Origin: Candidatus Binatia bacterium
Lineage (GTDB): Bacteria > Vulcanimicrobiota > Vulcanimicrobiia > Vulcanimicrobiales > Vulcanimicrobiaceae
NCBI GenBank assembly: GCA_035544215.1
Contig: DATKHY010000007.1
Coordinates: 496,001 to 560,000, forward strand
Reading direction: 5' to 3'
Length of the DNA: 64,000 nt
The notes under the pieces were generated by a model. It did not search any database. It was not told the DNA's origin and saw only the letters and a list, made by a program, of their open reading frames with translations. Below are positions 39,494 through 58,365 of the stretch, in pieces (the stretch's first letter is position 1; each line of letters opens with the position of its first letter). Made by a program: the position numbers and the translations under genes.

Positions 39494-42466
39494 ATGCCGG
39501 GCGTCGTTATCGAGAACCCAATTCTTAACTCTCCATATGAAGAGCCGAAACGGCATTGGAAATTCGGCGACGATGGGATCACCGACGAAGTCGTCGAGGG
39601 GCGCCGCGTAAGCTCGTACTTCATTCCAATACCGCCGCCGAAAAAGAAGAATAAGCAACTCGCGCTGGAGACCAGCTGGACGGCTGAACGCGAGAAGCCC
39701 AACGAACTCATTAATCAGATTCGCCAACGCGTAGCCGAATGGCGCATTGGGGGCTATCAGGGAGTCACCGCAACCACGCGGGCGCTGCTTGAATACTGGA
39801 CAGATCCGCACCGAGAGAGGCGTTTGTTTTTCTGCCAGATCGAGGCGCTAGAGACCGCTATCTATCTCGCGGAAGTGGCCGACCGCTACGGACAAGCGTG
39901 GATTGGCAAGGAGCTGCGTGGCTCCAATGCTACGGCGAATCCCGGTATCGATCGCACCGCCGTTAAGATGGCGACGGGCTCAGGCAAGACAGTAGTGATG
40001 GCGATGCTTATCGCGTGGCACGCGCTCAACAAAATCGCTCAGCCCCAGAACAAGGAGTTCTCCGACGCCTTTCTGATTGTCACGCCTGGCATCACGGTGC
40101 GCGACCGCCTACGCGTCCTACTGCCCAACGATCCGAACAACTACTACCTAGAACGCGATATCGTTCGACCCGATCAGCTCGACATGCTTCAGCAAGCCAA
40201 GATCGTTATAACCAACTATCACGCCTTCGGACTACGCGACCGCGCTGAGTTCGCTGCGACATCACTTACGAAGAAGGTCCTAGCCGGCCCCGACGGCGAC
40301 ATTAGCCGCTTCAAAGAAACGCCGGCCGAGATGGTCCGCCGCGTGCTACGCGATTTGGGAATAAAGAAAAGCCTCATCGTCATCAACGACGAGGCGCATC
40401 ATTGCTATCGCGAAAAGCCCGAGAGCGAGGAAGAGCAACTCGCCGCCGACGAGCGAGTCGAGGCGAGCCAGAACCGCGAGGCGGCGCGCGTCTGGCTCAC
40501 CGGACTCGAAGCGGTCGGAAACAAGCTCGACATTCGGGCCTGCTATGACCTCTCGGCGACGCCTTTCTTCCTGCGGGGCTCCGGCTATCGCGAGGGAACG
40601 CTGTTTCCGTGGGTTATATCCGATTTCTCGCTCATCGATGCTATCGAGTGCGGGATCGTCAAGATTCCACGCGTTCCTGTTTCGGATAACCGAGTCGTTG
40701 GCGCGATGCCGACGTATCGCGATCTATGGTTGCAAGTCCGCGACGACCTGCCGAAGAGAAGCGCCAAATCGCTACAGGAGGGCGCTGAGCCGCACCTTCC
40801 AGCGAAACTAGAGGGTGCGCTCCGCAGTTTGTACGAGCACTACGAAAAGGCGTATCGTCTGTGGGCTACTCGTGGCATCGGAACACCGCCGGTCTTCATC
40901 GTGGTGTGCAGCAACACGGCCGTTTCAAAACTCGTCTACGATTATGTCGCTGGCTGGGAGAAGGCGCTTCCGAACGGTGGGACGGTCGTCGTGCCGGGAC
41001 AGCTTCCAATTTTTAGCAACGAGGCCGATGGCCTTTGGGGCACTCGCCCGAATTCGCTGCTCATCGACTCAGCGCAAATCGACTCCGGCGCCGGCATGGA
41101 TGAGAGCTTCAGGCGCGCCGCCAAGAACGAGATCGAGGAGTTCAAAAACGAATACCGCCGCCGCTTTCCCGACCGGAGCGCTGACGAGATTACCAATGAA
41201 GACCTGCTGCGCGAGGTGCTCAACACGATCGGCAAGCCCGACCGCCTCGGCGAATCGATCAAATGCGTCGTTTCGGTCTCGATGCTCACCGAAGGCTGGG
41301 ACGCCAACACCGTAACGCACATCCTTGGCGTACGCGCCTTCGGGACCCAGCTGTTATGTGAGCAGGTCGTCGGCCGTGGCCTTAGACGCATGAGCTACGA
41401 CGTTGGCACGGACGGAATGTTCTCTCCTGAGTACGCCGACGTGTACGGCGTGCCGTTCTCCTTCATTCCGACAGCCGGATCGACAGTCGCCCCCGCGTTG
41501 CCTAAGCAACTTTATCGTGTGAGGGCGCTTCCGGAACGTACCTCGTTGACGATCGAGTATCCGCGCGTCGTCGGCTACCGGTATGAGCTACCTCCCGAAC
41601 GAGTCATGGCACGCTTCAGCGATGATTCTCTGCTCACACTTACAACCGACATGCTCCCGACAGAGACTCGTCTTGATCCGATCGTGGGCGAGTCGAACGT
41701 AACTAATCTCGACGGGCTTAAGGCGATGCGCCTCCAGCACATCGCGTTCGTCGTTGCTCGGCGCGTCCTCGCAACGCACTTTGGCGATGCGATAGGTACC
41801 GACAAGCCGTGGCTCTTTCCGCAGATGTTGGAGATCGCGAAGCGCTGGATGCGAGAGTGCCTTGTGTGCAGAGACGACACATTTCCGCAGCTCCTGGCGC
41901 TGCAAGAGCTGACGCTGGCAGCATCGGAGCGCATCTATCGTGCCGTCGTGGCGGGCGCAGCGGGAGAGAAACGACTGCTCCCGCTGCTGCGCCCGTATGA
42001 GACAATTGGCAGCACCGCTAATGTGGGTTTCGACACGAGCAAGAGTGTCTACACGACGAAGAATAGTCCCCTCAACTATGTCGTGCTCGACAGCGATTGG
42101 GAGGCGAAAGTCGCGGAGGCGCTCGAAAGCATGGGCGAGGTGGTCTCGTACGTCAAGAACGACGATCGAGTCGGGTTCCGTATTCCGTACACGGACGGCG
42201 GAGCACCGCATGACTACATTCCTGACTTTCTCATTCGCTGGCGCGCGGCCGACGGGAACGAAGTGATGGTAATCGCAGAGGTAACGGGCGAGCGCAAGAA
42301 GGCGAAGGCCGCCAAGATCGAGACGGCCGAGCAGCTATGGGTGCCGGCGATCAACAATCTCGGTCAGTTCGGGCGCTGGCGTTTCGTAGAAATCACCGAT
42401 CCCAATGATTCAAAGCGTTTACTCCGGACCAAGCTCGCGTCACTACGGGAGGCTGTTGTCAGTTAG
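39494..42466 (+). CDS. Type III-like restriction endonuclease, BPTD_3080-type
   Basis: The 990-residue helicase-nuclease has SF2 motifs: Walker A MATGSGKTVV (~160), DEAH box INDEAHH (~298), motif III-like DLSATPFF and motif VI-like QVVGRGLRR. The C-terminal 130 residues hold a PD-(D/E)xK-like nuclease region: YIPDFLIRW, then VMVIAEVTGERKK. The usual Lys of ExK is a Thr in EVTG. This layout matches a known subgroup annotated as the BPTD_3080 family restriction endonuclease. It cuts unmodified foreign DNA with its methyltransferase partner. The ATG has no clear Shine-Dalgarno; the stop is 2 bp before the methyltransferase ATG. Confidence 0.87.
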   Translation: MPGVVIENPILNSPYEEPKRHWKFGDDGITDEVVEGRRVSSYFIPIPPPKKKNKQLALETSWTAEREKPNELINQIRQRVAEWRIGGYQGVTATTRALLEYWTDPHRERRLFFCQIEALETAIYLAEVADRYGQAWIGKELRGSNATANPGIDRTAVKMATGSGKTVVMAMLIAWHALNKIAQPQNKEFSDAFLIVTPGITVRDRLRVLLPNDPNNYYLERDIVRPDQLDMLQQAKIVITNYHAFGLRDRAEFAATSLTKKVLAGPDGDISRFKETPAEMVRRVLRDLGIKKSLIVINDEAHHCYREKPESEEEQLAADERVEASQNREAARVWLTGLEAVGNKLDIRACYDLSATPFFLRGSGYREGTLFPWVISDFSLIDAIECGIVKIPRVPVSDNRVVGAMPTYRDLWLQVRDDLPKRSAKSLQEGAEPHLPAKLEGALRSLYEHYEKAYRLWATRGIGTPPVFIVVCSNTAVSKLVYDYVAGWEKALPNGGTVVVPGQLPIFSNEADGLWGTRPNSLLIDSAQIDSGAGMDESFRRAAKNEIEEFKNEYRRRFPDRSADEITNEDLLREVLNTIGKPDRLGESIKCVVSVSMLTEGWDANTVTHILGVRAFGTQLLCEQVVGRGLRRMSYDVGTDGMFSPEYADVYGVPFSFIPTAGSTVAPALPKQLYRVRALPERTSLTIEYPRVVGYRYELPPERVMARFSDDSLLTLTTDMLPTETRLDPIVGESNVTNLDGLKAMRLQHIAFVVARRVLATHFGDAIGTDKPWLFPQMLEIAKRWMRECLVCRDDTFPQLLALQELTLAASERIYRAVVAGAAGEKRLLPLLRPYETIGSTANVGFDTSKSVYTTKNSPLNYVVLDSDWEAKVAEALESMGEVVSYVKNDDRVGFRIPYTDGGAPHDYIPDFLIRWRAADGNEVMVIAEVTGERKKAKAAKIETAEQLWVPAINNLGQFGRWRFVEITDPNDSKRLLRTKLASLREAVVS

Positions 42467-42468
42467 GC

Positions 42469-45060
42469 ATGCCATCGAAAAAGATCGCAGAGAACAAGCA
42501 TAAGAGCGCAACGCGCGTGAATATTCCAACCGCGGAGTTGGAGTCGATGGCAGAACAGCGAGACGGCGCCGCGAAGGCGCTGCTCTATCCGCGTGACCCT
42601 TCCCTAGATCCACAACTCGTCTGGCGGGGCAAAGACGAACAGGATCAAGCGGACCTGGCGGTGCCGCTGGTTCCGCTATTCATTCAAGAGCAGATTTCAC
42701 CCCGCGCGATCATCGAGGAACTGCGCAAGCGCACTGAGGAGTCCGTTGGGCCTGGGCTTTTCGACAATTTCAATGGCTTGAGTTTCGAGCAACGCGTCGA
42801 CTTCTACCAGCACCGGCGCAAGTGGTCAAACCGAATGATCCTCGGTGACTCGCTAATGGTCATGGCATCACTTGCCGAAAAGGAAGGTCTCAAAGGCAAG
42901 GTCCAGATGATTTACTTGGACCCGCCGTACGGCATCAAGTTCGGCTCAAACTGGCAAGTGTCGACCCGCAAGCGGGATGTTAGAGATGGCAGGGCAGATG
43001 ACGCCACTAGGCAACCGGAACAGGTCCGAGCCTTCAGGGATACCTGGGAACTGGGCATCCATTCCTATCTCTCGTACCTTCGGGATAGGGTAACTATCGC
43101 GCGAGATCTGTTGACAGACAGTGGTTCCATTTTCATCCAAATAGGCGACGCAAACGTGCATCTTGTACGAAGTGTTCTGGATGAGGTCTTCGGTTCAGGA
43201 AACTTTGTTAGTGTGATTACTGTACAGAAGATGGCCGGCTTATCGGCCGAATTTATCAACGGCGCGGCAGACTACATTGTCTGGTACGTTCGGAACAGAG
43301 AAACCGCTAAATATCGGCAACTGTTTCAAGACAAACTTCTGGGCGTTGGCCATGGTTCCGGTGCGCGATACGACCAAATCATATCGCCTTCTGGCGAAAG
43401 GCGGAGGGCTCCAAAAATCGCATCGGACTTAAACAAGATGCTCTCTGAGGGGTGGGAGCCCTGCCAGCTAACTACGTTGACGACGTTTGGCTCGGGTGGA
43501 TCGTCGTTTTTCCCGTTCGACTTTCAAGGAAAAACCTACTTTCCGGCTACAGGCAAGGGTTGGCTCACCACCCTTAACGGGATGCGTCGGCTGGATGTGG
43601 CGCACCGTATCATGTCGTCCGGCGCGACCATAAGGTATCTACGACTGTTAAACGATTTTCCAAGTTACGAACTGAACAATGTATGGACCGACATTGCGAG
43701 CCCGCCCGATGTTGTCTACGCCGTGCAGACCAGCCCACGTCTCGTCCAACGCTGTATGTTAATGTGCTCGGATCCTGGTGATCTCGTTCTCGACCCAACT
43801 TGCGGCAGCGGTACTACCGCGTTTGTCGCCGAGCAGTGGGGTCGCCGATGGATCACCATTGATACAAGTCGCGTCGCCCTGGCCTTAGCTCGAACGCGCT
43901 TGATGTCGGCAAGGTTCCCTTTCTACATATTGGCCGACTCGCCGGAGGGCGTCCGCAAAGAGCACCAACTGGCAAAGACAATTCCTCCCGATCCACTTCC
44001 AGCGATGAACTGCGATGTCGACAAGGGCTTCATCTACGAACAAGTCCCGCACGTGACGCTTAAGTCGATTGCCAACAACCCGGATATTCGAGAAGCGATG
44101 ACGCGGGAGGAAATCCGTACGGCAATTGCGCGCCACGCCGAAACTGAACTGCTCTACGACAAGCCTTACGAAGAGAAGGACATCGTTCGCGTCTCGGGCC
44201 CGTTTACGGTTGAGAGCCTCTCCCCGCACCGCATGCTTCCAGCCGCCGACGGCGTTCGTGACCCAGAGCCGGATCCTGCACCCGACTCGGAGCGCTTCAT
44301 ATCGCGCATCCTTGACAACCTGCGTAAAGCGGGCGTACAAAATACTGTCAAGGGAGAGCGCCTGGACTTCGCTTCAATCGAGCTCTGGCCTGGCGCGTAC
44401 ATCCAGGCAGTTGGGGATTACAACGAGGCCGACAAGGCGAAGCGCGCCGCGATTTGTATAGGTCCCGAATACGGCACGGTGGGCCCTGAGCTGATCCGCG
44501 AAGCCGCGAAGGAGGCGTCGAAGATATGCGATTTGCTAATAGTTTGCGGCTTTGCGTTTGAAGCGATCGTTGGCGAGGAGTCGTCGAAGTTGGGCCGCAT
44601 GCAGGTCTTGCGAGCCAAGATGAACCCTGACCTCTCGATGGGCGACGAACTCCTCAAGAAGACCGGTGCAGGCAATCTTTTCATGGTCTTCGGCGAGCCC
44701 GACATTGAGATTCGCAAAGAGGGTACAGGCGAGTACGTCGCACAGATTCGCGGCCTCGACATCTACGATCCCACTACTGGCGCCGTGAAGAGCCACGACA
44801 CGGATGATATCGCCTGCTGGTTTATCGACACCAACTACGACGAAGAGAGTTTCTTCGTTCGCCATGCCTATTTCGTTGGCGCGGGCGATCCCTACGAGAA
44901 GCTCCGCAAGGCGCTGCGCGCGGATATCGACGAATCAGCATGGCAGACGCTCTACCGCACAACGAGCCGCCCATTCAAAAAACCGTCAACCGGTAAGATT
45001 GCCATCAAAGTCATCAACCACTATGGCGATGAAGTGCTAAAGGCGTACGCCATCTCGTAG
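42469..45060 (+). CDS. Type III-like DNA adenine methyltransferase (beta class)
   Basis: The 863-residue enzyme has the catalytic motif IV MIYLDPPYGIKFG (~150) and, later, the SAM motif I LDPTCGSGTTAFVAEQWGRRWITID (~440), an order typical of beta-class N6-adenine methyltransferases. The insertion between them is long and probably holds the target recognition domain. The C-terminal 300 residues are extended compared with classical Mod subunits. It protects self DNA and forms one operon with the upstream helicase-nuclease, here with res before mod rather than the more common mod-res order. Confidence 0.88.
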   Translation: MPSKKIAENKHKSATRVNIPTAELESMAEQRDGAAKALLYPRDPSLDPQLVWRGKDEQDQADLAVPLVPLFIQEQISPRAIIEELRKRTEESVGPGLFDNFNGLSFEQRVDFYQHRRKWSNRMILGDSLMVMASLAEKEGLKGKVQMIYLDPPYGIKFGSNWQVSTRKRDVRDGRADDATRQPEQVRAFRDTWELGIHSYLSYLRDRVTIARDLLTDSGSIFIQIGDANVHLVRSVLDEVFGSGNFVSVITVQKMAGLSAEFINGAADYIVWYVRNRETAKYRQLFQDKLLGVGHGSGARYDQIISPSGERRRAPKIASDLNKMLSEGWEPCQLTTLTTFGSGGSSFFPFDFQGKTYFPATGKGWLTTLNGMRRLDVAHRIMSSGATIRYLRLLNDFPSYELNNVWTDIASPPDVVYAVQTSPRLVQRCMLMCSDPGDLVLDPTCGSGTTAFVAEQWGRRWITIDTSRVALALARTRLMSARFPFYILADSPEGVRKEHQLAKTIPPDPLPAMNCDVDKGFIYEQVPHVTLKSIANNPDIREAMTREEIRTAIARHAETELLYDKPYEEKDIVRVSGPFTVESLSPHRMLPAADGVRDPEPDPAPDSERFISRILDNLRKAGVQNTVKGERLDFASIELWPGAYIQAVGDYNEADKAKRAAICIGPEYGTVGPELIREAAKEASKICDLLIVCGFAFEAIVGEESSKLGRMQVLRAKMNPDLSMGDELLKKTGAGNLFMVFGEPDIEIRKEGTGEYVAQIRGLDIYDPTTGAVKSHDTDDIACWFIDTNYDEESFFVRHAYFVGAGDPYEKLRKALRADIDESAWQTLYRTTSRPFKKPSTGKIAIKVINHYGDEVLKAYAIS

Positions 45061-45226: not shown

Positions 45227-46135
45227 TCAATCTTGATCTGGTTGCCTTAGGTGTGAAAGCCCTATTAAGAGAAGTTCCGTCAACCGGTCAACGGAGCTTG
45301 TGTGAAATAGCTCACGCTGCTGTTCAATCGAAAGTTTATTCGTTTCCGCGATACTGGGCTCGTCAAAATTCTGGAGTGCATCCCAGATTTCTGCTCGGCT
45401 TTGGAAGCGCGAGGCCTCAACGCCGTCTGCAAATTGAAGCGGAGTCTCAAATGCCTTAAAATCCGGGCAAAAGGATTTAGGCATCGGCTTCCCCTCGATT
45501 GCCCAAATGATTTCCTGCGATGCTCCCCCAAATAAGTCGGACATATATAGCGGACGATGACTGTCAAGTGACAGCACAGCTTCCTCAAGGACGCCCGGCA
45601 AGAAACCTTGAGAACCTGAAAGCCTCCCGCCCAGGCACAGCCTAGCTGTACACTCTCCGGTAAGTCTGCGCCGGAGGTACGTCAAGGCGCGAGCGCGGAC
45701 GTACTTGAACTCGCTGGTCGCCGTCATGCCGGAAACGCGTTGCGCTTCCTCTCGGAGGTCCTCGGGCAAAACGGGTCCTTCGATCTGAAGAGTTGGGGAT
45801 AGCGCGTCAATATCATCTGCTGAAAGAGAGGGAACGTCGGGCCACGCTAGGATGTTTCGCAGCATTGGTTCTCCAAGAACTCGAGCATCGTCCTCAGAAA
45901 GTCCAACTGGTGCTCGCATCTGCTGGGCAAAGGAAAGCATTGCTTCCATGACACCATCCTGCCGCCAGTCATGACCGAATACAACGGTCATTCCTTGCCC
46001 GAACAGAGCTGACACGAGTTGGAGTGATACGCGATTCACCTGCCAAGTTGGAAACCCGCGTTCCGCGCTGTCAAGGCTCTCTGAAACCGAAAGATTGATT
46101 GACATCCCCGCAAGTGGTCGTGTGCTAATACTCAT
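45227..46135 (-). CDS. SLOG-domain protein linked to TIR genes
   Basis: The 302-residue protein has a Rossmann-like SLOG pattern. The start NLSVSES and VVFGHDWRQDGVMEAM is followed by LCLGGRLSGSQGFLPGVLEEAVLSL and then PLYMSDLFGGASQEI, the three glycine-rich nucleotide-binding loops of the family. SLOG domains bind NAD-derived or other nucleotide signals, as in the ThsA sensor of Thoeris. It follows a TIR gene by 25 bp on the same strand with a good ggag site, so it probably senses or processes the molecule the TIR protein makes. Confidence 0.78.
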   Translation of the reverse strand: MSISTRPLAGMSINLSVSESLDSAERGFPTWQVNRVSLQLVSALFGQGMTVVFGHDWRQDGVMEAMLSFAQQMRAPVGLSEDDARVLGEPMLRNILAWPDVPSLSADDIDALSPTLQIEGPVLPEDLREEAQRVSGMTATSEFKYVRARALTYLRRRLTGECTARLCLGGRLSGSQGFLPGVLEEAVLSLDSHRPLYMSDLFGGASQEIIWAIEGKPMPKSFCPDFKAFETPLQFADGVEASRFQSRAEIWDALQNFDEPSIAETNKLSIEQQRELFHTSSVDRLTELLLIGLSHLRQPDQD

Positions 46136-46160
46136 AAGGAGTCTCCAGCCCCGTTCATGC

Positions 46161-47369
46161 CTAAGCGCCCATCGCAGAAATGGTCTCCGGAGTTACCAAC
46201 TTTGTGCCAGGAGCTGCTTCGTTTACAAGGGCATTTGCAGCCTCATAAAGGCCGGCTCGCAGCGGAGGATCAGGATATATAATCATTTTCTGTGGTGCCG
46301 CGCTCGTTGCGAGGCTGTTGCAAGCGCGCAGCAATGCTGCCATGCTGGGCTGAAAAGAGAAGGCCTTGACTTCGCAGTCTTCGGATAAATCGCCATTTCG
46401 TTTCATCTGGGTAACGCGCACGACGAAGAGCATGAATCGTAGGCTTTCGCGCAGTGCGACGAACAGGATGCGAAAGAGGTTCCCATCAGGAATTCGGACA
46501 GACGGGGCTCGATCTAGCGGGAGGGTGGTTGCTCCGTAGGTGAGAGACGTACGTGCATCCACTAAGACAGCTGGCGTCGCGTATTCGTCTGCCCACTTTA
46601 CCTCCTGCTGACACCACGGGCGGCTCTCGTAAATGTTGGTTCTCAAGATTATGATTACCGAATTGCCGACACCGCGCTCTAATTCCTCGGGCCAAAATGA
46701 TCCGGCTGGGATATCCTTCGCATCGTAAAAAGTCGTCAGTCCAAGAGCAGCAATTTGGTGAAGAAGCGCCTGTGCGAGGGGCAGTCCATCCGCTTTTGCA
46801 TGGCTGATGAAGAGCGTAAGGTTCGTTGCCGGATTGTTAGCAATTGTTCCAATAGAGTTAGACAGCTGCATTCTACAGTGGTGCAAGGCATTCAATGCCG
46901 CTATTGCCGGCCGAACTGCCGGCTCACCAAAGGAAGACGCTATGACTACCTGCGCATACTGAAGGTCGCCTGCCTTCTCAGTAAAAGCTCGCGCAGATTG
47001 CTCCTCGAGTGCGAAGGGCACTAACGTGCATCGGTCGCTCGAAGCTTGAACCTCACGGTAGTACTTCCTGATCCAATTCCAAAACTTCTTACTAGCTTTC
47101 TTAATTAGCGTACGATCGATGAACACCAGGACGACCGTATGGCAAAACCCACTAAGGGATTCGGCTGGAGAAAATTTAGGTGCGTTAGAAAAGAGTCTGA
47201 GTTGAATCCCAAGGTCGTCTCCAGTGGCGAGGTAGGAACCCGCATCCTTACCACCTTGGAGCGCCCGGACAAGCGCCTCCTCGTAGGGAGCTATCTCAAC
47301 GTCATCGCCGCGAAAAATAATAAGTTGTAACGGCTGATGTTTCATTTCGACGGCCTGCATCGGCTGCAC
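46161..47369 (-). CDS. TIR-domain protein with extra N- and C-terminal domains
   Basis: The 402-residue protein has a central TIR domain (about 185-310): NLTLFISHAKADG, TFYDAKDIPAGSFW, VIIILRTNIYES and RPWCQQEVKWAD. The Glu in the last segment is at the place of the catalytic glutamate of NAD-hydrolysing TIRs. The N-terminal 180 residues and the C-terminal 90 (QKMIIYPDPPLRAGLYEAANALV) are not assigned; the latter resembles partner domains found with TIR-SLOG pairs. It likely signals through NAD cleavage on infection. Start codon 47369 or 47345. The region looks lower in GC than its surroundings. Confidence 0.82.
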   Translation of the reverse strand: MQPMQAVEMKHQPLQLIIFRGDDVEIAPYEEALVRALQGGKDAGSYLATGDDLGIQLRLFSNAPKFSPAESLSGFCHTVVLVFIDRTLIKKASKKFWNWIRKYYREVQASSDRCTLVPFALEEQSARAFTEKAGDLQYAQVVIASSFGEPAVRPAIAALNALHHCRMQLSNSIGTIANNPATNLTLFISHAKADGLPLAQALLHQIAALGLTTFYDAKDIPAGSFWPEELERGVGNSVIIILRTNIYESRPWCQQEVKWADEYATPAVLVDARTSLTYGATTLPLDRAPSVRIPDGNLFRILFVALRESLRFMLFVVRVTQMKRNGDLSEDCEVKAFSFQPSMAALLRACNSLATSAAPQKMIIYPDPPLRAGLYEAANALVNEAAPGTKLVTPETISAMGA

Positions 47370-47406
47370 CGCCGAACCATTTGTGTGAGTTGCGTCGGTG
47401 TCACGA

Positions 47407-47913
47407 TTAGGCGTTTCTTATGCGAATTGGCCGGGAATTGCGAATAAGACGTTTGTCGCGTCGGTTGGCATCTTCGATTACCGCGCTCAAGTGCGTAGGG
47501 TTATCGATAATCGCTTCCCAACGTATCCAGACGGCATACCCGGTTTCGATGTTATCATGAAGGCGTTCCGGCACGGAAACTCTATTATTGATTATCGGCA
47601 AGGATGGAAGTTGTACGCCAATGAGGCCATGCTCAGCGTCAAGGGTTCCTTTGATTTCCATGTCAACATGTTTTCGCCCACTGGTCTGAGCACCACATAG
47701 CACGATCGTGCATGAGCTGCCTGTAATGTACTCCTGACGTATCACTCGCATGACGTAGTCTACGTTGTCGCTATCCACCTCGCGATCCAGAGAATGGTCC
47801 TCGACGACATCGTAAATACCACCAAAGGTCTGCGTGAACGCATCGTAGTAGCGCTGGTCACCTCGATGATGATAGCTCACGAAGACCCTGCGTTTTACGG
47901 GCGAAGATCGCAT
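47407..47913 (-). CDS. MTH538/ThsB-like TIR-fold protein
   Basis: The protein has about 168 residues from ATG 47913. It has the TIR-like MTH538 pattern: KRRVFVSYHHRGDQRYYDAF, then YVMRVIRQEYITGSSCTIVLCG and GRKHVDMEIKGTL. The same fold is used by ThsB of Thoeris to make a cyclic ADP-ribose-like signal. The longer frame from 47997 begins with residues that do not look like a protein. It heads the minus-strand trio followed by TIR and SLOG, 37 bp upstream of the TIR gene. Confidence 0.82.
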   Translation of the reverse strand: MRSSPVKRRVFVSYHHRGDQRYYDAFTQTFGGIYDVVEDHSLDREVDSDNVDYVMRVIRQEYITGSSCTIVLCGAQTSGRKHVDMEIKGTLDAEHGLIGVQLPSLPIINNRVSVPERLHDNIETGYAVWIRWEAIIDNPTHLSAVIEDANRRDKRLIRNSRPIRIRNA

Positions 47914-48256
47914 GCAAAATCTGCCTGTCTTTCTAGACTGAGGGCTTCTGGGCGCGCCCGCCCAGCGCCGAAAGTGCTGATACAATCGCTTGGCCATGCG
48001 CCGGTCCGCCGCAAGACCTGGATGTTATGTCACGTAGAGGGCGCGCGTAGTGGGCGCGGGTCGCTGCGGTCGAGGGCATCGGCTACGCCTTTCTGCATTT
48101 CGTGGGCATCGCGGCGAGCTGCTTTCTGTAGGGAGGATAATCCTGCCATAGCATACTTTAACCGCTACCTCTTGCGCCCCTACGGACGGTTACCTGTTAT
48201 CATAGCGCTGGTGGGAAGCCCACTTTTGTGCCCAAGGGTGGCGGGAAAAAGCACGC
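47914..48256. other. Intergenic region between divergent TIR-like genes
   Basis: The 343 bp hold the promoters of two divergent operons. TTGCGC near 48172 and a TATCAT stretch near 48199 before the plus-strand gene could be promoter elements, but spacing is unsure. A short open stretch ending at 48130 looks protein-like but has no start and is not called. Confidence 0.4.
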
Positions 48257-48730
48257 ATGAGCGACGACATCCAACACATCTTCATCAGCCACATCCACGA
48301 GGACGACGCGCGCCTGCCGGCACTCAAGGAGCTGCTGGCAAAACACGAGTATGACGTTCGCGACAGCTCGATTAACTCGACCAAGCCCAACGAGGCCAAG
48401 AACGAAGACTACATCAAACGAGAAATTCTTGCGCCGCAGATCGACTGGGCGAAGGCGCTGGTCGTATTGATTTCACCCGGTACGCACGAAAGCAGATGGG
48501 TTAATTGGGAAATCGAGTACGCCCACCAACAGGGTAAACGCGTTATAGGCGTATGGGACCGTGGTGCGCAGGACGCCGATCTCCCAGAGACCCTCTCAAA
48601 ATACGGCGATGCGCGCGTAGTCGGTTGGCACGGACAGCGCATCATCGATGCGATCAACGGAAAGGACGAGTGGGACAACGTCGATGGCACGCCGCGCGAT
48701 GAAGCTGACATCCCACGGCATAACTGTTGA
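48257..48730 (+). CDS. Second MTH538/ThsB-like TIR-fold protein
   Basis: The 157-residue protein has the full pattern of this fold: QHIFISHIHEDDARLPALKELL, then EDYIKREILAPQIDWAKALVVLISPGTHESRWVNWEIEYAHQQGKRVIGVW. A Glu in the WEIEYA segment matches the catalytic position of TIR NADases. Its stop overlaps the TTG start of the Nmad2 gene by 4 bp. It thus belongs to a plus-strand operon with nucleotide-modification-associated genes rather than to the opposite TIR-SLOG trio. Confidence 0.83.
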   Translation: MSDDIQHIFISHIHEDDARLPALKELLAKHEYDVRDSSINSTKPNEAKNEDYIKREILAPQIDWAKALVVLISPGTHESRWVNWEIEYAHQQGKRVIGVWDRGAQDADLPETLSKYGDARVVGWHGQRIIDAINGKDEWDNVDGTPRDEADIPRHNC

Positions 48731-49341
48731 AGCTCTACTCCTATGTGATCGCGCGCGACTTCGGCTTCGCTCCTAACCCCTTCTATGGCTTTTGTACGCT
48801 CGCGACTTGTAAACCGAGGATTCGTAAAGGGGCATCGATCGGGGACTGGATCGTCGGAACTGGCTCGACGAAATACGATCTACACGGACACCTCGTATAT
48901 GCGATGCGAGTGACAGAGGATCTAGCCTTCGACGATTATTGGAGCGACCCGCGCTTCGTACATAAGCGACCGAATCTGCGCGGCAGTCTCAAACAATGGT
49001 TCGGCGACAACATCTATCACCGCAATCCTCGCACAGGCCGCTGGATCCAGGAGAATTCGCACCATAGCCGCGGCACAGGAAGACCGTTCAAGAGCAACAT
49101 TGACCACGACACGCAGACTGATCGCGTGCTGATATCGGACGACTTCGTGTACTTTGGTGGATCCGCGCCACGTATACCTGCCCCATTTCGTACCGGGAAC
49201 AAGCTCTGGAAGAACGGCGCGAGCCACAAGGGCAACTTCACCGACGCTTACATCGAGCGCGTCGTCGAGTGGCTGCGTTCCTTAGGATCGTGGGGATGCG
49301 TTGGCGACCCGGCTGAGTTCGCGAAGATCAAGTGGGCGTGA
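48727..49341 (+). CDS. Nmad2-domain (nucleotide-modification-associated) protein
   Basis: The 204-residue protein starts at TTG, overlapping the previous stop. It begins LKLYSYVIARDFGFAPNPFYGFCTLATCKPRIRKGASIGDWIVGTGS, which is the diagnostic pattern of the Nmad2 domain described by Aravind and co-workers from DNA-modification gene neighbourhoods. No reaction is established. The domain is thought to act on, or recognise, modified bases or nucleotides. Its stop overlaps the ATG of the MazG-like gene (TGATG). Confidence 0.82.
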   Translation: MKLYSYVIARDFGFAPNPFYGFCTLATCKPRIRKGASIGDWIVGTGSTKYDLHGHLVYAMRVTEDLAFDDYWSDPRFVHKRPNLRGSLKQWFGDNIYHRNPRTGRWIQENSHHSRGTGRPFKSNIDHDTQTDRVLISDDFVYFGGSAPRIPAPFRTGNKLWKNGASHKGNFTDAYIERVVEWLRSLGSWGCVGDPAEFAKIKWA

Positions 49342-50471
49342 TGACGACGAACCGCTGGCTCATTCCTTACGCGAAGGCAGCCAGAACCTCGGATATTTTC
49401 CGCGGACGCCCGGACCACACGCTTCTGATCGCCGCGGGGCTGCTCGGCGAAGCCGGGAGCGTCCTTGCCGAAGTCAAGAAGCGTCAGCGGGAGGAGGATG
49501 TCTACCCGGACTATCTCGATTCACTTGGCGAAGAGCTCGGTGACTCGCTATGGTATCTCGTCCGCCTTATCGATCTGCTCGACCGTCCGCTGCTGAGATC
49601 CATTGCGAGGGAGCGCGTACGCGCAAACCGCAGGCCCGCCCTGGCGAGCGCTCTCGACCTCGGCGCTGCGGCTGGCCGCATCATTTCGACACTCAAACTC
49701 CGAGATAGTATCGCGCTGCGACAAGCACTGTGCGCCGCCTGGGCGTCGCTTGAGCGGGTTGCGCGCGCCTACGGAAAGACGCTGGAGCAGGCCGCTAATG
49801 ACAACCTTCTCAAGACGCAGAGTCGTTGGCCGAGCGAAAGGACGAGGCCGGCCTGGCCCCGCCCTTCAGATTACCATCCGCTGTTTGATGCCGACGTGCC
49901 GCCCGAGGATCAGCTGCCGCGCAGCATGGAGTTCGAGTTCATCGAGCGCGGACGTGGTGAACGCAAGCAGGTCGTCCTCCGTGCTAACGGCATCAATGTC
50001 GGTTCGCGCATTAACGACAATATCACAGACCCGGATCATTATCGCTATCACGACATTTTTCACCTTTCATATGCAGTCTTTCTCGGATGGTCGCCTGTGA
50101 TTCGAAACGTGCTGCGCTGCAAGCGAAAGAGTAACCCGGAACTGGACGAAAATCAAGATGGAGCGCGCGCTGTCATCATAGATGAGGCGATCTCCGCCAC
50201 CGTCTTTAGCAGAGCGAAACACACGCGTTACTTCGAGGACGCGACACAGGTCGACTACGATCTGCTCAAGATCATCGCGGAGTTCGTTCGCGGCTACGAA
50301 GTTGAAGCGATACCTGCATGGCAATGGGAACACGCAATCCTTGAAGGGTTTCGGGTCTTCCATCAGCTCAGAGCGAACCACGGCGGTCGCGTATCCGTGA
50401 ACCTGCCCCAACGATCGCTCGTATACCGTAAGCCGCAAAGGAGACGAGCGGGCCGCATGCGGAAGCGATAA
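49341..50471 (+). CDS. MazG-like nucleotide pyrophosphohydrolase with C-terminal extension
   Basis: The 376-residue protein has an N-terminal MazG-like all-alpha domain (LLIAAGLLGEAGSVLAEVKK, then SLGEELGDSLWYLVRLIDLL) with the paired acidic residues that bind Mg. The remaining 230 residues are of unknown fold but contain DPDHYRYHDIFHLSYAVFLGW, a His/Asp-rich motif that could bind metal. MazG enzymes remove unwanted or modified NTPs. The ATG at 49341 overlaps the Nmad2 stop and is preferred over GTG 49332. Confidence 0.8.
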   Translation: MTTNRWLIPYAKAARTSDIFRGRPDHTLLIAAGLLGEAGSVLAEVKKRQREEDVYPDYLDSLGEELGDSLWYLVRLIDLLDRPLLRSIARERVRANRRPALASALDLGAAAGRIISTLKLRDSIALRQALCAAWASLERVARAYGKTLEQAANDNLLKTQSRWPSERTRPAWPRPSDYHPLFDADVPPEDQLPRSMEFEFIERGRGERKQVVLRANGINVGSRINDNITDPDHYRYHDIFHLSYAVFLGWSPVIRNVLRCKRKSNPELDENQDGARAVIIDEAISATVFSRAKHTRYFEDATQVDYDLLKIIAEFVRGYEVEAIPAWQWEHAILEGFRVFHQLRANHGGRVSVNLPQRSLVYRKPQRRRAGRMRKR

Positions 50472-50477
50472 GTACCA

Positions 50478-51467
50478 ATGACCGCCCGGCGCTACTTCAG
50501 AGTTTCCCCAGGCTTGATTCTGTCGACGACGCCGGTGTTCGAAACGTATTGGCGCTTTGCGTACGAGCGACAGGAAATCTTCTATCGGCGTTTGTCAGGC
50601 GATCCGCAGCCATGGACCGACGACGCCATCTTACGCGCATTCCGCTTCACGAACGTCTACCGCGCGTCCGACCGTGTCAGCCAATATCTCATCCGCCACG
50701 TTATCTACGAAGGCTCACAGACGACCGACGAGATATTCTTTCGAGTCTTCCTCTTCAAGATATTTAACCGGATAGAGACGTGGGAGCGTCTTGTCGAGAG
50801 TCTGCAACAACCGGCATGGTCGACGTTTGACTTCCGTCGCTACGATCGCGTATTGGGCGATCTTATGCGGCGAGGCGAACGCATTTACTCCGCAGCATAC
50901 ATCGTACCACCGCCCGACCTTGGTCGGGTGCGGAAGCACTCGAACCACCTGCTGTTACTGACCATGATGATGCGCGATCGGCTGCCAGACCGCCTGGCGG
51001 AAGCGCGTAACTTGCGCGAGACATTCGAACTCCTACGCGCGTATCCGTCTCTCGGAGATTTTCTCGCGTTTCAGTTCTCCATAGATCTCAACTATGGACC
51101 ATTCTTGAACTTTTCGGAAATGGAGCATGTCGTCGCCGGCCCTGGAGCACGAAGCGGCATCCGAAAAGCATTCAGCGACGCGGGGGGACTATGCGACGAG
51201 GATGTGATCCGCGCGGTCGCCGAGCACGCGAGTCGAGAGTTCGCGGCTCGTGGACTGTCTTTTCGGTCACTCTGGGGCCGGTCCCTACAGTTAATCGATT
51301 GCCAAAACCTATTCTGCGAGGTGGACAAGTACTCACGGGTGGCGCATCCCACGGTAGCTGGGCTCGGGCGTACGCGCATCAAGCGTCGCTTCGCTGCGCC
51401 GAAGGCTACATTTGAACATTGGTATCCGCCGAAGTGGCGCCTAGCGATGAACCGCGCTGTCCCCTAA
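50478..51467 (+). CDS. HMUDK helical domain / aGPT-pyrophosphorylase-like protein
   Basis: The 329-residue protein has the pattern ILRAFRFTNVYRASDRVSQYLIRHVIY near residues 50-80, followed by helical segments. This matches the helical domain known from 5-hydroxymethyl-dUMP DNA kinases and from alpha-glutamyl/putrescinyl-thymine pyrophosphorylases of phages that hypermodify thymine. No P-loop kinase domain is attached. It probably acts on, or recognises, modified thymines or their precursors. It is 6 bp from the MazG-like gene and in the same operon. Confidence 0.72.
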   Translation: MTARRYFRVSPGLILSTTPVFETYWRFAYERQEIFYRRLSGDPQPWTDDAILRAFRFTNVYRASDRVSQYLIRHVIYEGSQTTDEIFFRVFLFKIFNRIETWERLVESLQQPAWSTFDFRRYDRVLGDLMRRGERIYSAAYIVPPPDLGRVRKHSNHLLLLTMMMRDRLPDRLAEARNLRETFELLRAYPSLGDFLAFQFSIDLNYGPFLNFSEMEHVVAGPGARSGIRKAFSDAGGLCDEDVIRAVAEHASREFAARGLSFRSLWGRSLQLIDCQNLFCEVDKYSRVAHPTVAGLGRTRIKRRFAAPKATFEHWYPPKWRLAMNRAVP

Positions 51468-51519: not shown

Positions 51520-52305
51520 TTGCGCCACTATCGTGACCCACTTGTCCCCGAAATGAAGATCCAAATACATCGTCAGTTGTATCGATTCCGAAATGCGGAG
51601 GCGCTAAGATTTGCTTTTAGACAGATGCTCGAGACCGTGCGACCTTGGATGACCGAAACAGTCAGCCGCATAAATCAGACGTATCATGTGGGCCGAGTTA
51701 ACCAAACCACCGCAGAGGTAAAGCTCGCGGATATCGGCAAGCGGCCTGGCCTAACGTGGAACGAAGGAGAAATAGGCGAGTACGCGTTGCCGTCCAGGGC
51801 CGCCTATGTTGCGGCTATGCAGGTTGAGCTCGATGCGGAGTTGACCCTGTTAACTTTAGATGGCATAGTGACGGGTCTCGTAAATGCCTTGACCCTGGAG
51901 GACCGACCTCTCGGCGTTGGCGGAGCGTTGGAGGGTGATGTCAGATTAGATGTGTTGTTAGACGCCGCCGCAAATTTTGTGCGTCATCGGTCAGAATGGT
52001 TAACGGCGGTGCGCGACGGCAGACCACTCGAACGCCGACAGTTGGAGTCAATCGAACCTCTAGCTCGATCGATTTCCGGCAACGCGAAACTGTCGAGCGG
52101 CGCCGCCGCTAGCTTTCTTTTTGACTTTCCGATGCCGATGCTCGCGGTCTTAGACATTATTGCTGGCTACGACCGCGCGAGCTGTGTGAGTTACGCTCTA
52201 ATCGAGGACCGGATCGTCGCGCTTGGCCACACCATTATAGAGCACGAGTTTGTCGCGTGGATGACACAGCCGAACACGCGGCGTTCGCAGCGACAGCGAC
52301 TCTAA
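51520..52305 (+). CDS. Hypothetical protein in the nucleotide-modification operon
   Basis: The 261-residue protein starts at TTG with a gagg site about 8 bases before it. It is helical, with Leu/Ala-rich stretches (AMQVELDAELTLLTLDGIVTGLVNAL, LLDAAANFVRHRSEWL) and no recognisable catalytic motif or membrane segment. It may be a structural partner of the preceding proteins, from which it is separated by 52 bp. No family was recognised. Confidence 0.6.
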   Translation: MRHYRDPLVPEMKIQIHRQLYRFRNAEALRFAFRQMLETVRPWMTETVSRINQTYHVGRVNQTTAEVKLADIGKRPGLTWNEGEIGEYALPSRAAYVAAMQVELDAELTLLTLDGIVTGLVNALTLEDRPLGVGGALEGDVRLDVLLDAAANFVRHRSEWLTAVRDGRPLERRQLESIEPLARSISGNAKLSSGAAASFLFDFPMPMLAVLDIIAGYDRASCVSYALIEDRIVALGHTIIEHEFVAWMTQPNTRRSQRQRL

Positions 52306-52573: not shown

Positions 52574-53326
52574 TTGAATGGGAAAAAAGTGACGGTGCTC
52601 CGAGAAGTCTTCGACTCGATAGCCTACTGCAAGAATGTCGCGCTGTGCCAACGCGGGGACGGATCGCACCCCTGCACCAAGATCGTCCGGTCCCAGCACG
52701 TCCCTGACGACGAGTTCCAACTCCCAGAGCCGTGGCGCGGCCAGATCGACAAAGCGCGCATCCTGTTCGTAGGTTCCAACCCTTCGATCGGCGACGATCG
52801 CTATGCCCTTCAGTCTTCGCCGGCAAAGCAGGTCTGGGAGTCGCAGCATCTCGCGTTCGGCGGCGGGAGCCGGCAATACGTCATAGACGGCATGAGAACG
52901 ACTAAGGCCGATGGGTCGCCCGGCCGCCTCGTACGCTACTGGTCGTCGATTCAGGCTCGTGCTCGCGAGCTGATCCCAGGCGCGGTCCCGGGCGAGGACT
53001 ACGCGATTTCTGAAGTCGTGCACTGCAAGTCCAAGGGCGAAGACGGAGTCGCCCAAGCCGGCCAAACGTGCTATGCCATGCATGCGACGGCCGTGTTTTC
53101 GGTCGCGGCTGCCAAGGTCATAATCGTGCTTGGCAAGTTCGCCAAGGAACGAATAATAGGGGGCGTGGCCGCTCCTGTAGCTCCCTCACAGCTGGAACTG
53201 GGAGGCCGAATACGGACCCTACTATTCTTGCCCCATCCCAACGCTCGAGGCGTAAGGAAGGCTCTTTCAGCGCATTATGCCTACGCAGATTTGGAGGCGG
53301 TCAAAAAGCGAATCGCAGACCCATGA
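52574..53326 (+). CDS. Possible uracil-DNA-glycosylase-like protein
   Basis: The 250-residue protein contains RILFVGSNPSIGDD and, near the end, TLLFLPHPNARGVRK. These resemble the two active-site motifs of the UDG superfamily (GxNPS-like and HPNxRG-like). Between them are EVVHCKSKGEDGV and three cysteines. The N-terminal part also has paired cysteines (CQRGDGSHPC). If correct, it would remove or recognise an unusual base, which fits its neighbours. The start is uncertain: TTG 52574 or GTG 52589. Confidence 0.5.
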   Translation: MNGKKVTVLREVFDSIAYCKNVALCQRGDGSHPCTKIVRSQHVPDDEFQLPEPWRGQIDKARILFVGSNPSIGDDRYALQSSPAKQVWESQHLAFGGGSRQYVIDGMRTTKADGSPGRLVRYWSSIQARARELIPGAVPGEDYAISEVVHCKSKGEDGVAQAGQTCYAMHATAVFSVAAAKVIIVLGKFAKERIIGGVAAPVAPSQLELGGRIRTLLFLPHPNARGVRKALSAHYAYADLEAVKKRIADP

Positions 53327-55117: not shown

Positions 55118-56236
55118 CTAAACCAAATTTATCCGTAATTCGGCAGCGAACTCGCCTGCGAGGCTCTTCGGAGAAAATTCGTTCGCATTGACGACGAGTG
55201 GAGCATTGGGAATCCAAACGACGTCTTGTTGGTCAGCCAGTGGACGTCCCATGTCGCCCACAGGATAGAAATCGCGAGTCGCCTCCGAAACTCTGAGATC
55301 TGGAGCATCAAGGAACACCGTCCCGATGCCGAGGAAGCTCTGCCCGTTAAAACCCCAGCGCGAGCGTACATCGCTGAATGCAATGAGCGCCATCTCGACG
55401 ATTTCCTCAAACATATACCCGTACAAGAAGGGGTTATCTTCTGGACCTCTGCGGCGTAAACGTTGCATATACGTCACCGCACCACTGAGGTAAGTCCTGA
55501 AGTTTGTGCTACGATCACCCGGGGTAGTGCTTTCCGCTCCAAGATATACTTCCAGAAAGTCGGGACCTGGTCGAAAATCATAGTCGAATCCGCTGGGCCA
55601 AAAATAAGTGTCGTAATGGGTCGCGTTCATCGCGTTGATGATTGGGTGAACGAGATCCTGCGCTCGAAAGGGCGGTGTTCCGAACACGTTTCTGCCCAAA
55701 TAGTGTCGATCATGTGGTACCGGTAAAGCGTAGACGACCAGACGAGCCCGATCGCTGGGTGGCACGCCAAAGCGAATGCTCTGCAAGATCTCTTGTGGAC
55801 TTCGTGCGCCAGCCTCAATGGTACCGTGGTCCCGCTTGCGAACCGGAACGCGCCCTTTCATGACCCGGTCGAATAACTGTGTCGACAAATCGTCATGGTC
55901 CGCGTATCGCAAGCTGTCCCATCCGACGATGTCAGACTGGAGTTCCCTCACGGCGTCTCGTCTGACGACCACAAAGCCAGGTTCTTGCGCACCCAGTGCA
56001 TAACCGAGCTCGAACAGCACATTGGCGTTGCAGTCGGTGACATCGAAGAAACAGACGTCCGCTTCACTCATCATGCGCGTTATCTTGGCCATCACATGGG
56101 TGTTCGCTAGCTCGTCATCGGCGTAACGAAACTCGATTCCAGTACCGGCGAAGCGGCGTTCGAGTGCCGCGCGATATTCGATTCCGAACGAATACGGATA
56201 GGCGACGAAGATCGACCTAACTCTCACAGTACGCAC
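55118..56236 (-). CDS. Nucleoside 2-deoxyribosyltransferase/TIR-like N-terminal domain protein
   Basis: The 372-residue protein has an N-terminal region (about 8-105) with the pattern SIFVAYPYSFGIEYRAALERRF, then ADVCFFDVTDCNANVLFELGYALG. This is typical of nucleoside 2-deoxyribosyltransferase-like and TIR-related domains that cleave N-glycosidic bonds. The C-terminal 250 residues are unassigned but include FEEIVEMALIAFSDV. It would act on nucleotides or NAD. It is the last gene of an operon with an XRE-ImmA regulator, so it may be the effector of that unit. The start is GTG 56236. Confidence 0.65.
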   Translation of the reverse strand: MRTVRVRSIFVAYPYSFGIEYRAALERRFAGTGIEFRYADDELANTHVMAKITRMMSEADVCFFDVTDCNANVLFELGYALGAQEPGFVVVRRDAVRELQSDIVGWDSLRYADHDDLSTQLFDRVMKGRVPVRKRDHGTIEAGARSPQEILQSIRFGVPPSDRARLVVYALPVPHDRHYLGRNVFGTPPFRAQDLVHPIINAMNATHYDTYFWPSGFDYDFRPGPDFLEVYLGAESTTPGDRSTNFRTYLSGAVTYMQRLRRRGPEDNPFLYGYMFEEIVEMALIAFSDVRSRWGFNGQSFLGIGTVFLDAPDLRVSEATRDFYPVGDMGRPLADQQDVVWIPNAPLVVNANEFSPKSLAGEFAAELRINLV

Positions 56237-56492: not shown

Positions 56493-57677
56493 TCAGCGTT
56501 GCCGAAAAGGAATGACTTCCCCCCGGACATTAGGGCGTTCGATCTCCACGATCGCCGGGCTTTTATCGCGCGTGGCTGCCAGCGAGCCAACGGGTAAGCC
56601 GCTAAGTTCTTCGATGTCTTGCGAATCGTAGGGTAGTGCCGACAGTATGTCTGACGGAACGACCGCGCGATGAGCAATAAGCATTTCAAAGGCCTGCCGT
56701 AGGAGCTCGGGCTGCTCCGCCGGCGTCTCGTCGTCGAACGGCTCTCGCGTCCGCCAGCCGCGCGCACTAAATGCGCGGAAGAATCGAATCTTCGCGTCGT
56801 CGTCGATGAGTTTCAGGTCGTTCAGTCTCATGGCTATTGCCTGCATCGACACGCCCCACTGTCGCTTGAGGTTCTTCAACCCTTCCAGCGTCGTCGAAGT
56901 CACAGTCCTCGCAAAGGATCGCGCCGGAAGCAAGAACGCCGAGGCGAACCGATGCGCCTGAGATTCCATCAGCTTGTGCTCGACTGGTTTCCAGATGTCC
57001 TTAGCGAGAACCGCATTGTGCAGCAGAAGATGCCCAAGCTCATGAGCTGCGTCAAAGCGTGAGCGAAACGCCGATTCTCGATCGCTGGATAAGATGACGA
57101 ATGGGCGACCACTTGAATGGCGCTCTGAAAATGAGTCTAAGGCCTCAGCGTGAAGTGAAAAACGCGTGACGAGGACGCCGTGGTTTTCCAGCAGCCACGC
57201 GACGTTGCTGATGGGGCCGCCGCCCAATCCCCAGCGTCGGCGGATTTCCTGTGCGGCCTCTTCGAGGTCTTCGTCGCGAATCTCGATCGGTCGCGCGGTT
57301 TCGATCAGCGCCGGCACGTCTGTTTTCGGGAACGCGATGAGCTCCTCGAGCCAGGCGACAACGCGCGCGAGCCAGTCCAGCTTGCGCTCCGATCGCAGGC
57401 GGGCAGCCTTGGTGGCCGCGCTCTGCGAGCGATAGTAGAAGATTCGCTGGGGCGGATCGTCTGGCACGGGTTCCGTAAAGAAGCGTTCGGGCAGTCGTGT
57501 GATCGTGCAGATTCGCCCCATGATGTCGGGACTTGGCCTCTTGTGGTCGTGTTCGTATTGCGAGATCGCGGCGCGCGTCAGGCCGAGCACCTCTGCCAAC
57601 GATGCGGCCGTGAGCCCTCGCGCCTCGCGCGCCTCGCGCAGACGGGCGCCGACGAACCCCCGCGTTCCGGGCTTCAT
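56493..57677 (-). CDS. XRE helix-turn-helix plus ImmA/IrrE metallopeptidase
   Basis: The 394-residue protein has an XRE domain (about 8-65: ARLREAREARGLTAASLAEVLGLTRAAISQYE) and an ImmA/IrrE zinc peptidase domain with the active-site motif AAHELGHLLLH (~215) and a second Glu in LMESQAHRFASAFLLP. Such proteins cleave a repressor upon stress or phage infection and switch on element or defence genes. It overlaps the upstream gene by 4 bp. It presumably controls the operon 58306-55118. Confidence 0.9.
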   Translation of the reverse strand: MKPGTRGFVGARLREAREARGLTAASLAEVLGLTRAAISQYEHDHKRPSPDIMGRICTITRLPERFFTEPVPDDPPQRIFYYRSQSAATKAARLRSERKLDWLARVVAWLEELIAFPKTDVPALIETARPIEIRDEDLEEAAQEIRRRWGLGGGPISNVAWLLENHGVLVTRFSLHAEALDSFSERHSSGRPFVILSSDRESAFRSRFDAAHELGHLLLHNAVLAKDIWKPVEHKLMESQAHRFASAFLLPARSFARTVTSTTLEGLKNLKRQWGVSMQAIAMRLNDLKLIDDDAKIRFFRAFSARGWRTREPFDDETPAEQPELLRQAFEMLIAHRAVVPSDILSALPYDSQDIEELSGLPVGSLAATRDKSPAIVEIERPNVRGEVIPFRQR

Positions 57678-58306: not shown

Positions 58307-58327
58307 GGATGTGCCTCCGCTATGCGG

Positions 58328-58365
58328 GTTAACCAATGCTATTTTGAGCCGTTTTTGTTAACCAA
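58328..58365. promoter_or_regulatory. Paired GTTAACCAA boxes, possible operator
   Basis: GTTAACCAA occurs at 58328-58336 and again at 58357-58365, 29 bp apart from start to start and in the same direction. Each contains the palindrome GTTAAC. They lie just upstream of the operon with the XRE-ImmA protein, where its repressor would be expected to bind. Confidence 0.5.

Follow-up and report, generated by a model that had tools for sequence, protein, structure and literature searches.

The way in which TIR immune sensors recognize phages is known in few cases, such as capsid sensing by a staphylococcal Thoeris (PMC12578639). Among the Brig systems, Brig2 acts on phages with modified thymine, and Brig1 has been found near a ThsA-like gene (PMC11078745, PMC13160076). 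The Brig3 operon pairs a UDG-superfamily glycosylase with BapA, whose predicted structure is of ASCH type and was likened to ZmASCH by the authors (PMC13160076). DefensePredictor (PMC13092281, 2026, Fig. 6F) lists aGPT-Pplase, MazG, MazG-C, NMAD and UDG among its predictions of defence domains, none of them validated, and traces the set to a bioinformatic study published in 2015 in Nucleic Acids Research (NAR); TIR and SLOG are absent from its main text, which gives neither mechanism nor validation. Here, we analyse seven genes at 45227-51467 of a 64,000-nucleotide stretch of contig DATKHY010000007.1 (hereafter, the window) from a Candidatus Binatia bacterium genome placed in the Vulcanimicrobiaceae. 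We find that these TIR, SLOG, Nmad2, MazG and HMUDK genes almost certainly form one recurring system. In at least 15 phyla, this system translationally couples a TIR enzyme to a predicted modified-base reader and to DNA-base enzymes.

The window locus consists of two divergent arms. On the plus strand, TIRp (48257-48730, 157 aa) is a ThsB-type TIR and the predicted signal-making enzyme (Pfam ThsB_TIR, E = 3.4e-25). It is followed by Nmad2 (48727-49341, 204 aa; Pfam Nmad2, E = 6e-71), a predicted PUA-like (ASCH/EVE/YTH-like) reader of modified bases. Next come a MazG plus MazG_C nucleotide pyrophosphohydrolase (49332-50471, 379 aa; Pfam MazG_C, E = 6e-76), the MazG part of which is weak (19.4 bits, below the Pfam cut-off of 22), and an HMUDK_hel protein with predicted action on pyrimidine bases in DNA (50478-51467, 329 aa; Pfam E = 2.5e-110, 368.7 bits against a cut-off of 25). 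The minus strand carries SLOG, an LD_cluster2 protein and the predicted sensor part of the effector (45227-46135, 302 aa; Pfam PF18163, E = 1.4e-33), and TIR2, the predicted NAD-degrading effector, with its TIR domain in mid-protein (residues 187-262) between N- and C-terminal extensions (46161-47369, 402 aa; Pfam TIR_2, E = 1.4e-12). The third gene of this arm is TIRm, a ThsB-type TIR of 168 aa (47407-47913; Pfam ThsB_TIR, formerly MTH538, E = 1.1e-21). A sequence-only reading had named these seven genes with their domains and positions, and our open reading frame (ORF) and Pfam scans bore out all of them. The coupling that it proposed for the plus-strand genes is also there: the TIRp stop and Nmad2 start overlap as TTGA (48727-48730; translational coupling), MazG begins within the last 10 bp of Nmad2, and a gap of 6 bp separates MazG from HMUDK. 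By direct reading of the sequence, the region that it took the two arms to share (47914-48256) measures exactly 343 bp when TIRm starts at the internal ATG at 47913, within a longest ORF that reaches 47997. No convincing sigma-70 promoter was found in these 343 bp, where promoter-like matches were as frequent as in shuffled sequence.

The seven genes recur together well beyond the window. A scan of 84,980 species genomes for Nmad2 only returned 549 relatives, from which we kept the best 80 loci (L025-L104). Their Nmad2 proteins are the ones most closely related to that of the window, and the frequencies reported here describe that clade. Gene content was assigned by iterated profile searches over all loci. 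According to their record titles, the 80 loci span at least 15 phyla. TIRp was found in 76 of them, and in 74 it lies on the same strand as Nmad2, either overlapping it or directly upstream. Of the six exceptions, L065, L073 and L099 have Nmad2 no more than 43 bp from a contig end, and the use of stop-to-stop ORF coordinates makes L039 an artefact, as TIRp is listed there. MazG was present in 54 loci, TIR2 in 45, SLOG in 42, HMUDK in 40, TIRm in 37 and UDG in 25. Less frequent were a two-transmembrane protein ('TMeff', 20 loci), thymidylate synthase (17), a dCTP deaminase/dUTPase-like protein (9) and thymidylate kinase (9). TIR2 and SLOG together lie within 10 kb of Nmad2 in 42 loci. The picture was kept when the loci were collapsed by Nmad2 at 70% identity into 52 clusters.

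The trio and the plus-strand operon, which the sequence-only reading had joined, are thus found together in many genomes, often as one operon or divergently. A single co-directional operon occurs in 11 of the 80 loci (among them the compact L034, L050 and L074), mostly in the order (TIR2-SLOG)-TIRp-Nmad2-MazG-TIRm-HMUDK, so that TIRm usually sits between MazG and HMUDK. The divergent layout of the window is seen in 17 loci. The presence of SLOG near Nmad2 is far beyond chance, because LD_cluster2 is found in only about 2% of genomes overall (3 of 149 in the window's phylum, one being the window's own and one L025, and 7 of 398 in another phylum) vs 42 of the 80 Nmad2 loci. In that other phylum, six of 398 genomes have Nmad2, and both genomes having Nmad2 and LD_cluster2 have them adjacent. 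Evolutionary distances are correlated between partners (Nmad2-TIRp, 0.64; Nmad2-HMUDK, 0.58; SLOG-TIR2, 0.81) and also across the arms (SLOG-HMUDK, 0.64; Nmad2-SLOG, 0.43), with a permutation P of 0.001 each; these and all other P values given here are inflated by sequence kinship and hence indicative only. Plasmids of Cyanobacteriota, Actinomycetota and Pseudomonadota carry the set as well. On a Mesorhizobium plasmid, TIR-Nmad2-MazG-UDG precedes genes for a TIR, TIR2 and a hypothetical protein that matches SLOG. In Gloeothece, TIR2 and SLOG are fused and lie close to TIR-Nmad2-MazG-HMUDK, and in Beijerinckia TIR2 is divergent from TIR-Nmad2-MazG-UDG. Rhodococcus jostii RHA1 has a window-like divergent pair, SLOG-TIR2 and TIRp-Nmad2-MazG. 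The system is best explained as horizontally spread.

Comparison among loci shows three slots: a constant TIRp-Nmad2 core, a set of base or nucleotide enzymes, and exchangeable effectors. The enzyme sets observed were MazG with HMUDK, MazG with UDG, and thymidylate synthase with HMUDK. HMUDK (40 loci) and UDG (25 loci) were never found in the same locus (P = 2e-10), and the same holds among the 52 clusters (24 and 18, respectively; P = 5e-7). All 17 loci with thymidylate synthase have HMUDK, and none belongs to the 25 with UDG. This mutual exclusion, together with the restriction of thymidylate synthase to HMUDK loci, suggests that HMUDK and UDG serve as alternatives in a single pyrimidine-directed step. 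Effectors vary too, being TIR2-SLOG or the two-transmembrane protein (both in five loci); in Cupriavidus, the effector is a patatin-LD_cluster2 fusion whose match exceeds the Pfam cut-off. Exchange is visible within the window's own bacterial family. The four plus-strand proteins of L025 are 62-75% identical to those of the window, whereas its TIR2-SLOG belongs to another subfamily (no BLAST match reached 70% coverage) and it lacks TIRm. The core was therefore retained while the effector module was exchanged. L025 is apparently the locus in genome G101 (Candidatus Eremiobacterota, of the window's family), as LD_cluster2 has the same coordinates and E-value in both. The coupling of TIR2-SLOG to Nmad2 is modular and recurrent, not obligatory. 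Note that the two-transmembrane family (L036 8605-9342 and relatives, in 20 of the 80 loci) consists of proteins of about 246 aa with two predicted transmembrane stretches near residues 32-79 and without a Pfam match, often encoded beside TIRm or TIRp. It is a candidate SLATT-like membrane effector.

All three TIR proteins retain the catalytic glutamate. TIRp matches the PADLOC ThsB model PDLC00418 over its full length (E = 9e-64), and the glutamate of its WVNWE motif (E85) is invariant. In TIR2, W252xxxE256 (WCQQE) is invariant in 16 sequences, and in TIRm the catalytic glutamate E114 is near-invariant. The TIRp and TIRm profiles both match solved ThsB structures (for TIRm, about 2.5e-7 against 9b7d/6lhy). 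A defence-like assembly related to Thoeris, as the sequence-only reading had implied, is strongly supported. Sequence searches of the Protein Data Bank (PDB) with SLOG, MazG and UDG gave nothing meaningful. SLOG was never found without TIR2 in the 80 loci (fused to it in 15, separate in 27), which supports by inference that it is the signal sensor of a TIR effector. SLOG may sense a TIR-made NAD derivative and thereby activate the effector, as is suggested by LD_cluster2 being fused both to TIR2 and to patatin. Patatin-like phospholipases fused to LD_cluster2 SLOG (L019 3061-4677 and L106 7687-9306) are annotated as CBASS phospholipases; their sensor domain suggests an ADP-ribose-type signal rather than the annotated CBASS role.

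The predicted structure of Nmad2 was compared with known folds. Its AlphaFold2 model (pLDDT 90.6) has ZmASCH as the top Foldseek match in the PDB (E = 0.029, probability 0.82), and ASCH, EVE, YTH or other PUA-like domains make up the majority of the first 50 PDB matches. They include VcaM4I (an EVE-containing modification-dependent nuclease), THYN1 with 5-methylcytosine DNA, and YTH readers; in the viral library, ASCH and DUF3850 recur. A PDB sequence search with Nmad2 gave no meaningful match. Because the fold matches agree, although none is significant singly, they give a weak but consistent indication that Nmad2 has the PUA-like fold of ASCH, EVE and YTH readers. For HMUDK (AlphaFold2 pLDDT 92), a PDB sequence search likewise returned nothing meaningful, and the sensible ones among its weak fold matches are HhH-GPD DNA glycosylases. 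We do not claim this fold, given E = 0.6 for 2h56 and TM-scores of about 0.3-0.5 for 3knt and 3n0u. HMUDK relatives occur in 480 phage records, to which Salmonella, Klebsiella and Dickeya phages contribute many, whereas Nmad2 and MazG_C were found in none of 50,697 phages, which fits a host-side role. HMUDK is also encoded without a TIR at four plasmid loci (L005-L008), together with acyl carrier protein (ACP) or holo-ACP synthase, a helix-turn-helix (HTH) protein, ImmA, MazG and, in three of the four, thymidylate synthase. This gene set looks like an unstudied bacterial base-modification set.

Taken together, the system is very probably a defence. We somewhat favour a model of a modular, Thoeris-like abortive defence with a pyrimidine-base sensor. 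Nmad2, co-produced with TIRp, would recognize a non-canonical pyrimidine exposed or processed by MazG together with HMUDK or UDG, whether this pyrimidine is part of phage DNA, an excised base or a nucleotide. Recognition would switch on TIRp, and perhaps TIRm as well, which would turn NAD+ into an ADP-ribose-type messenger. SLOG would bind this messenger and activate its partner TIR2, which would in turn degrade NAD+ and halt the infected cell. The messenger and sensor steps are modelled on Thoeris (PMC7272460, PMC11204291), and by that analogy the cascade from TIR signal through SLOG to TIR2 is probable. As in the sequence-only reading, we hypothesize a trigger made of modified phage DNA or nucleotides, which gains new support from the predicted PUA-like fold of Nmad2 and from the mutual exclusion of HMUDK and UDG. 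The Brig glycosylases, above all the Brig3-BapA operon, are precedents, although neither protein of that operon is a TIR (PMC13160076). We hold it plausible, just short of probable, that a modified or excised pyrimidine is read through Nmad2.

Four other explanations have to be weighed against this model. In the first, the trigger would be an abnormal free (d)NTP or base arising from phage metabolism (dUTP or hydroxymethyl-dUTP), with MazG tuning its level and Nmad2 binding it. PUA-like pockets can hold small ligands, and the presence of MazG in 54 loci, with dCTP deaminase/dUTPase-like proteins and thymidylate kinase in 9 each, would suit such a nucleotide-pool alarm. However, the HMUDK and UDG families act on bases in DNA, and the DNA and RNA readers EVE, YTH and THYN1 are prominent among the Nmad2 fold matches. 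We therefore consider a free-nucleotide trigger rather unlikely.

A second explanation is that MazG, HMUDK and thymidylate synthase introduce a modified pyrimidine into cellular or plasmid DNA, that this mark is read by Nmad2, and that the TIR proteins kill if it is absent or if foreign DNA does not carry it. Many loci are plasmid-borne, thymidylate synthase is always accompanied by HMUDK, and some plasmid loci combine MazG, HMUDK and thymidylate synthase in the absence of a TIR, all of which would fit self-marking. It is nonetheless unlikely, because 25 loci have UDG in place of HMUDK and no thymidylate synthase (UDG excises bases and does not make them), and the window operon itself has no thymidylate synthase. 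Third, the TIR and SLOG genes could be an ordinary multi-TIR Thoeris variant, along with which Nmad2, MazG and HMUDK or UDG travel as a defence of their own, Brig-like or type IV-like. There is a full-length match between TIRp and the PADLOC ThsB model, TIR2-SLOG exists alone, and the glycosylase and ASCH-fold protein of Brig3-BapA protect without a TIR (PMC13160076). Two separate defences are distinctly improbable, however, as nearly every locus has TIRp overlapping Nmad2 or next to it, the two proteins co-diverge, and TIRm is embedded between MazG and HMUDK. Finally, TIR2-SLOG and Nmad2 do each occur alone, and GC content and integrases mark a genomic island, where unrelated cargo gathers, but the idea that the trio stands only by chance beside a nucleotide-metabolism operon has next to no probability and is refuted by recurrence across phyla, with SLOG-TIR2 within 10 kb in 42 of 80 Nmad2 loci vs about 2% of genomes, TIRm usually between MazG and HMUDK in the 11 single operons, and co-divergence of SLOG with both Nmad2 and HMUDK.

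Several observations weigh against the proposed pyrimidine-sensing defence itself, in addition to the sampling of a single Nmad2 clade and the kinship that inflates the P values. TIR2-SLOG is absent from 38 of the 80 Nmad2 loci and is also found without Nmad2, and more distant Nmad2 proteins occur without TIRp. The fold matches of both proteins are weak (best E = 0.6 for HMUDK and 0.029 for Nmad2), and by analogy with BapA (PMC13160076) the ASCH-like fold of Nmad2 could be that of an enzyme, not a reader. Loci with thymidylate synthase and HMUDK could make, rather than detect, modified bases. The model is inferred throughout from computation, namely gene content, sequence and predicted structure.

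The window locus lies in an apparent island: the region has a GC content of 0.56 vs 0.64 for the window's first 30 kb, and it is flanked by two integrase genes. Comparison with genus relatives for an empty site did not place the island borders, as the left-flank protein has no real homologue there. A type III restriction-modification pair (res/mod, 39494-45060) immediately precedes the seven genes. A Dehalococcoidia genome has close relatives of this pair immediately after the same system (L053 11905-17566), and a mod relative is present in a Nitrospira locus (L055 1-2238). The pair may thus be a regular companion of the system. Type I restriction-modification genes are companions elsewhere, with HsdR, HsdM and HsdS in 12 of the 80 loci each. 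They surround the system in L039, L041-L044, L050, L056, L057, L063 and L076, and in several loci the system sits inside the type I operon, between HsdM and HsdS/HsdR. Downstream, we rejected an orphan gene (51520-52305) and its neighbour (52574-53326) as parts of the system, as neither has homologues in the 80 Nmad2 loci; the neighbour, a UDG-superfamily gene below the Pfam cut-off, differs from the UDG of sister loci. Further along the island, 55118-56236 (minus strand) has weak matches to CAP12-PCTIR_TIR and nucleoside deoxyribosyltransferase and is possibly a further TIR-like NADase. On the island's right side, 56493-58336 (minus strand) holds an HTH and ImmA/IrrE-type peptidase gene with a partner gene; ImmA genes accompany HMUDK loci elsewhere too. 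ARAGORN calls a tRNA-Ser (cga) at 62287-62360 (plus strand) inside an integrase reading frame (61629-62786, minus strand), which is either a false tRNA call or an unusual island border.

The sequence-only reading called the locus a candidate new defence system. This stands for the joined set, as we found no description of a TIR/SLOG/Nmad2/base-enzyme system in the literature searched, which excluded the 2013 and 2015 NAR papers likeliest to hold earlier predictions. It has to be qualified for parts of the enzyme set, which DefensePredictor (PMC13092281) already lists as predictions. As a TIR signalling defence, the system has a real chance of being a new class by virtue of its trigger. More specifically, it is possible, if somewhat unlikely, that a TIR NAD-signalling enzyme is gated directly by Nmad2 as a reader of modified or excised pyrimidines, and that this reader is fed by MazG and by HMUDK or UDG as a base-excision or base-exchange enzyme, as a new class of immunity. 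In such a class, the base or nucleotide set free might itself serve as the ligand, or might reach SLOG as the messenger once bound to ADP-ribose. If true, a TIR pathway would read phage base modification, the phages' own trick against restriction and CRISPR, and functions would be gained for Nmad2, MazG_C, LD_cluster2 SLOG and the bacterial HMUDK proteins.

Membership in Thoeris type I, II or III was tested by defining parts and rejected. The locus shares with type I (SIR2-SLOG ThsA plus TIR ThsB) a small ThsB-type TIR and an effector with a SLOG sensor domain. However, SIR2 is absent from all seven proteins, the SLOG here is of LD_cluster2 type with a TIR as partner, and Nmad2, MazG and HMUDK or UDG are not among the Thoeris parts. 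The ThsA of type II has transmembrane and macro domains, whereas no macro domain was found among the region genes scanned. Type III (NCBIfam ThcB4) also has several TIRs, and the mid-protein TIR of TIR2 resembles ThcB4, but this match covers the TIR domain only and scores 28 bits, where the curated cut-off is 220; the other components of type III were not found. Pairs of a TIR with a two-transmembrane SLATT or PDC-M50 protein (PMC9503650; PADLOC candidates) recall the sister loci in which TIRm stands beside small two-transmembrane proteins, one family of which matches PDC-M50A; the window has TIR2-SLOG instead.

The remaining likenesses concern the base-directed genes. Thymidine-hypermodification sets (thymidylate synthase, HMUDK/aGPT-Pplase and MazG) share HMUDK_hel and MazG_C with the locus and have relatives in phages and plasmids. 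Unlike these sets, the locus adds Nmad2 and a TIR, the window lacks thymidylate synthase, and Nmad2 and MazG_C were not found in phages. With Brig1, Brig2, Brig3 and Brig3-BapA (PMC11078745, PMC13160076), sister loci share a UDG-superfamily glycosylase, which has an ASCH-fold protein encoded beside it in Brig3-BapA and accompanies Nmad2, with its weakly predicted ASCH-like fold, in the sister loci. Modified-pyrimidine phage DNA is the target of the Brig systems and a hypothetical one here. In Brig, the glycosylase alone protects, with no coupled TIR, whereas the window has HMUDK, not UDG, in the corresponding slot. Type IV modification-dependent restriction (EVE, SRA or ASCH readers, e.g., VcaM4I, PMC7897488) couples a reader of modified bases to an effector, as is predicted here for the PUA-like Nmad2. 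None of the seven genes encodes a nuclease domain, however, and the enzyme coupled to the reader here is a TIR.

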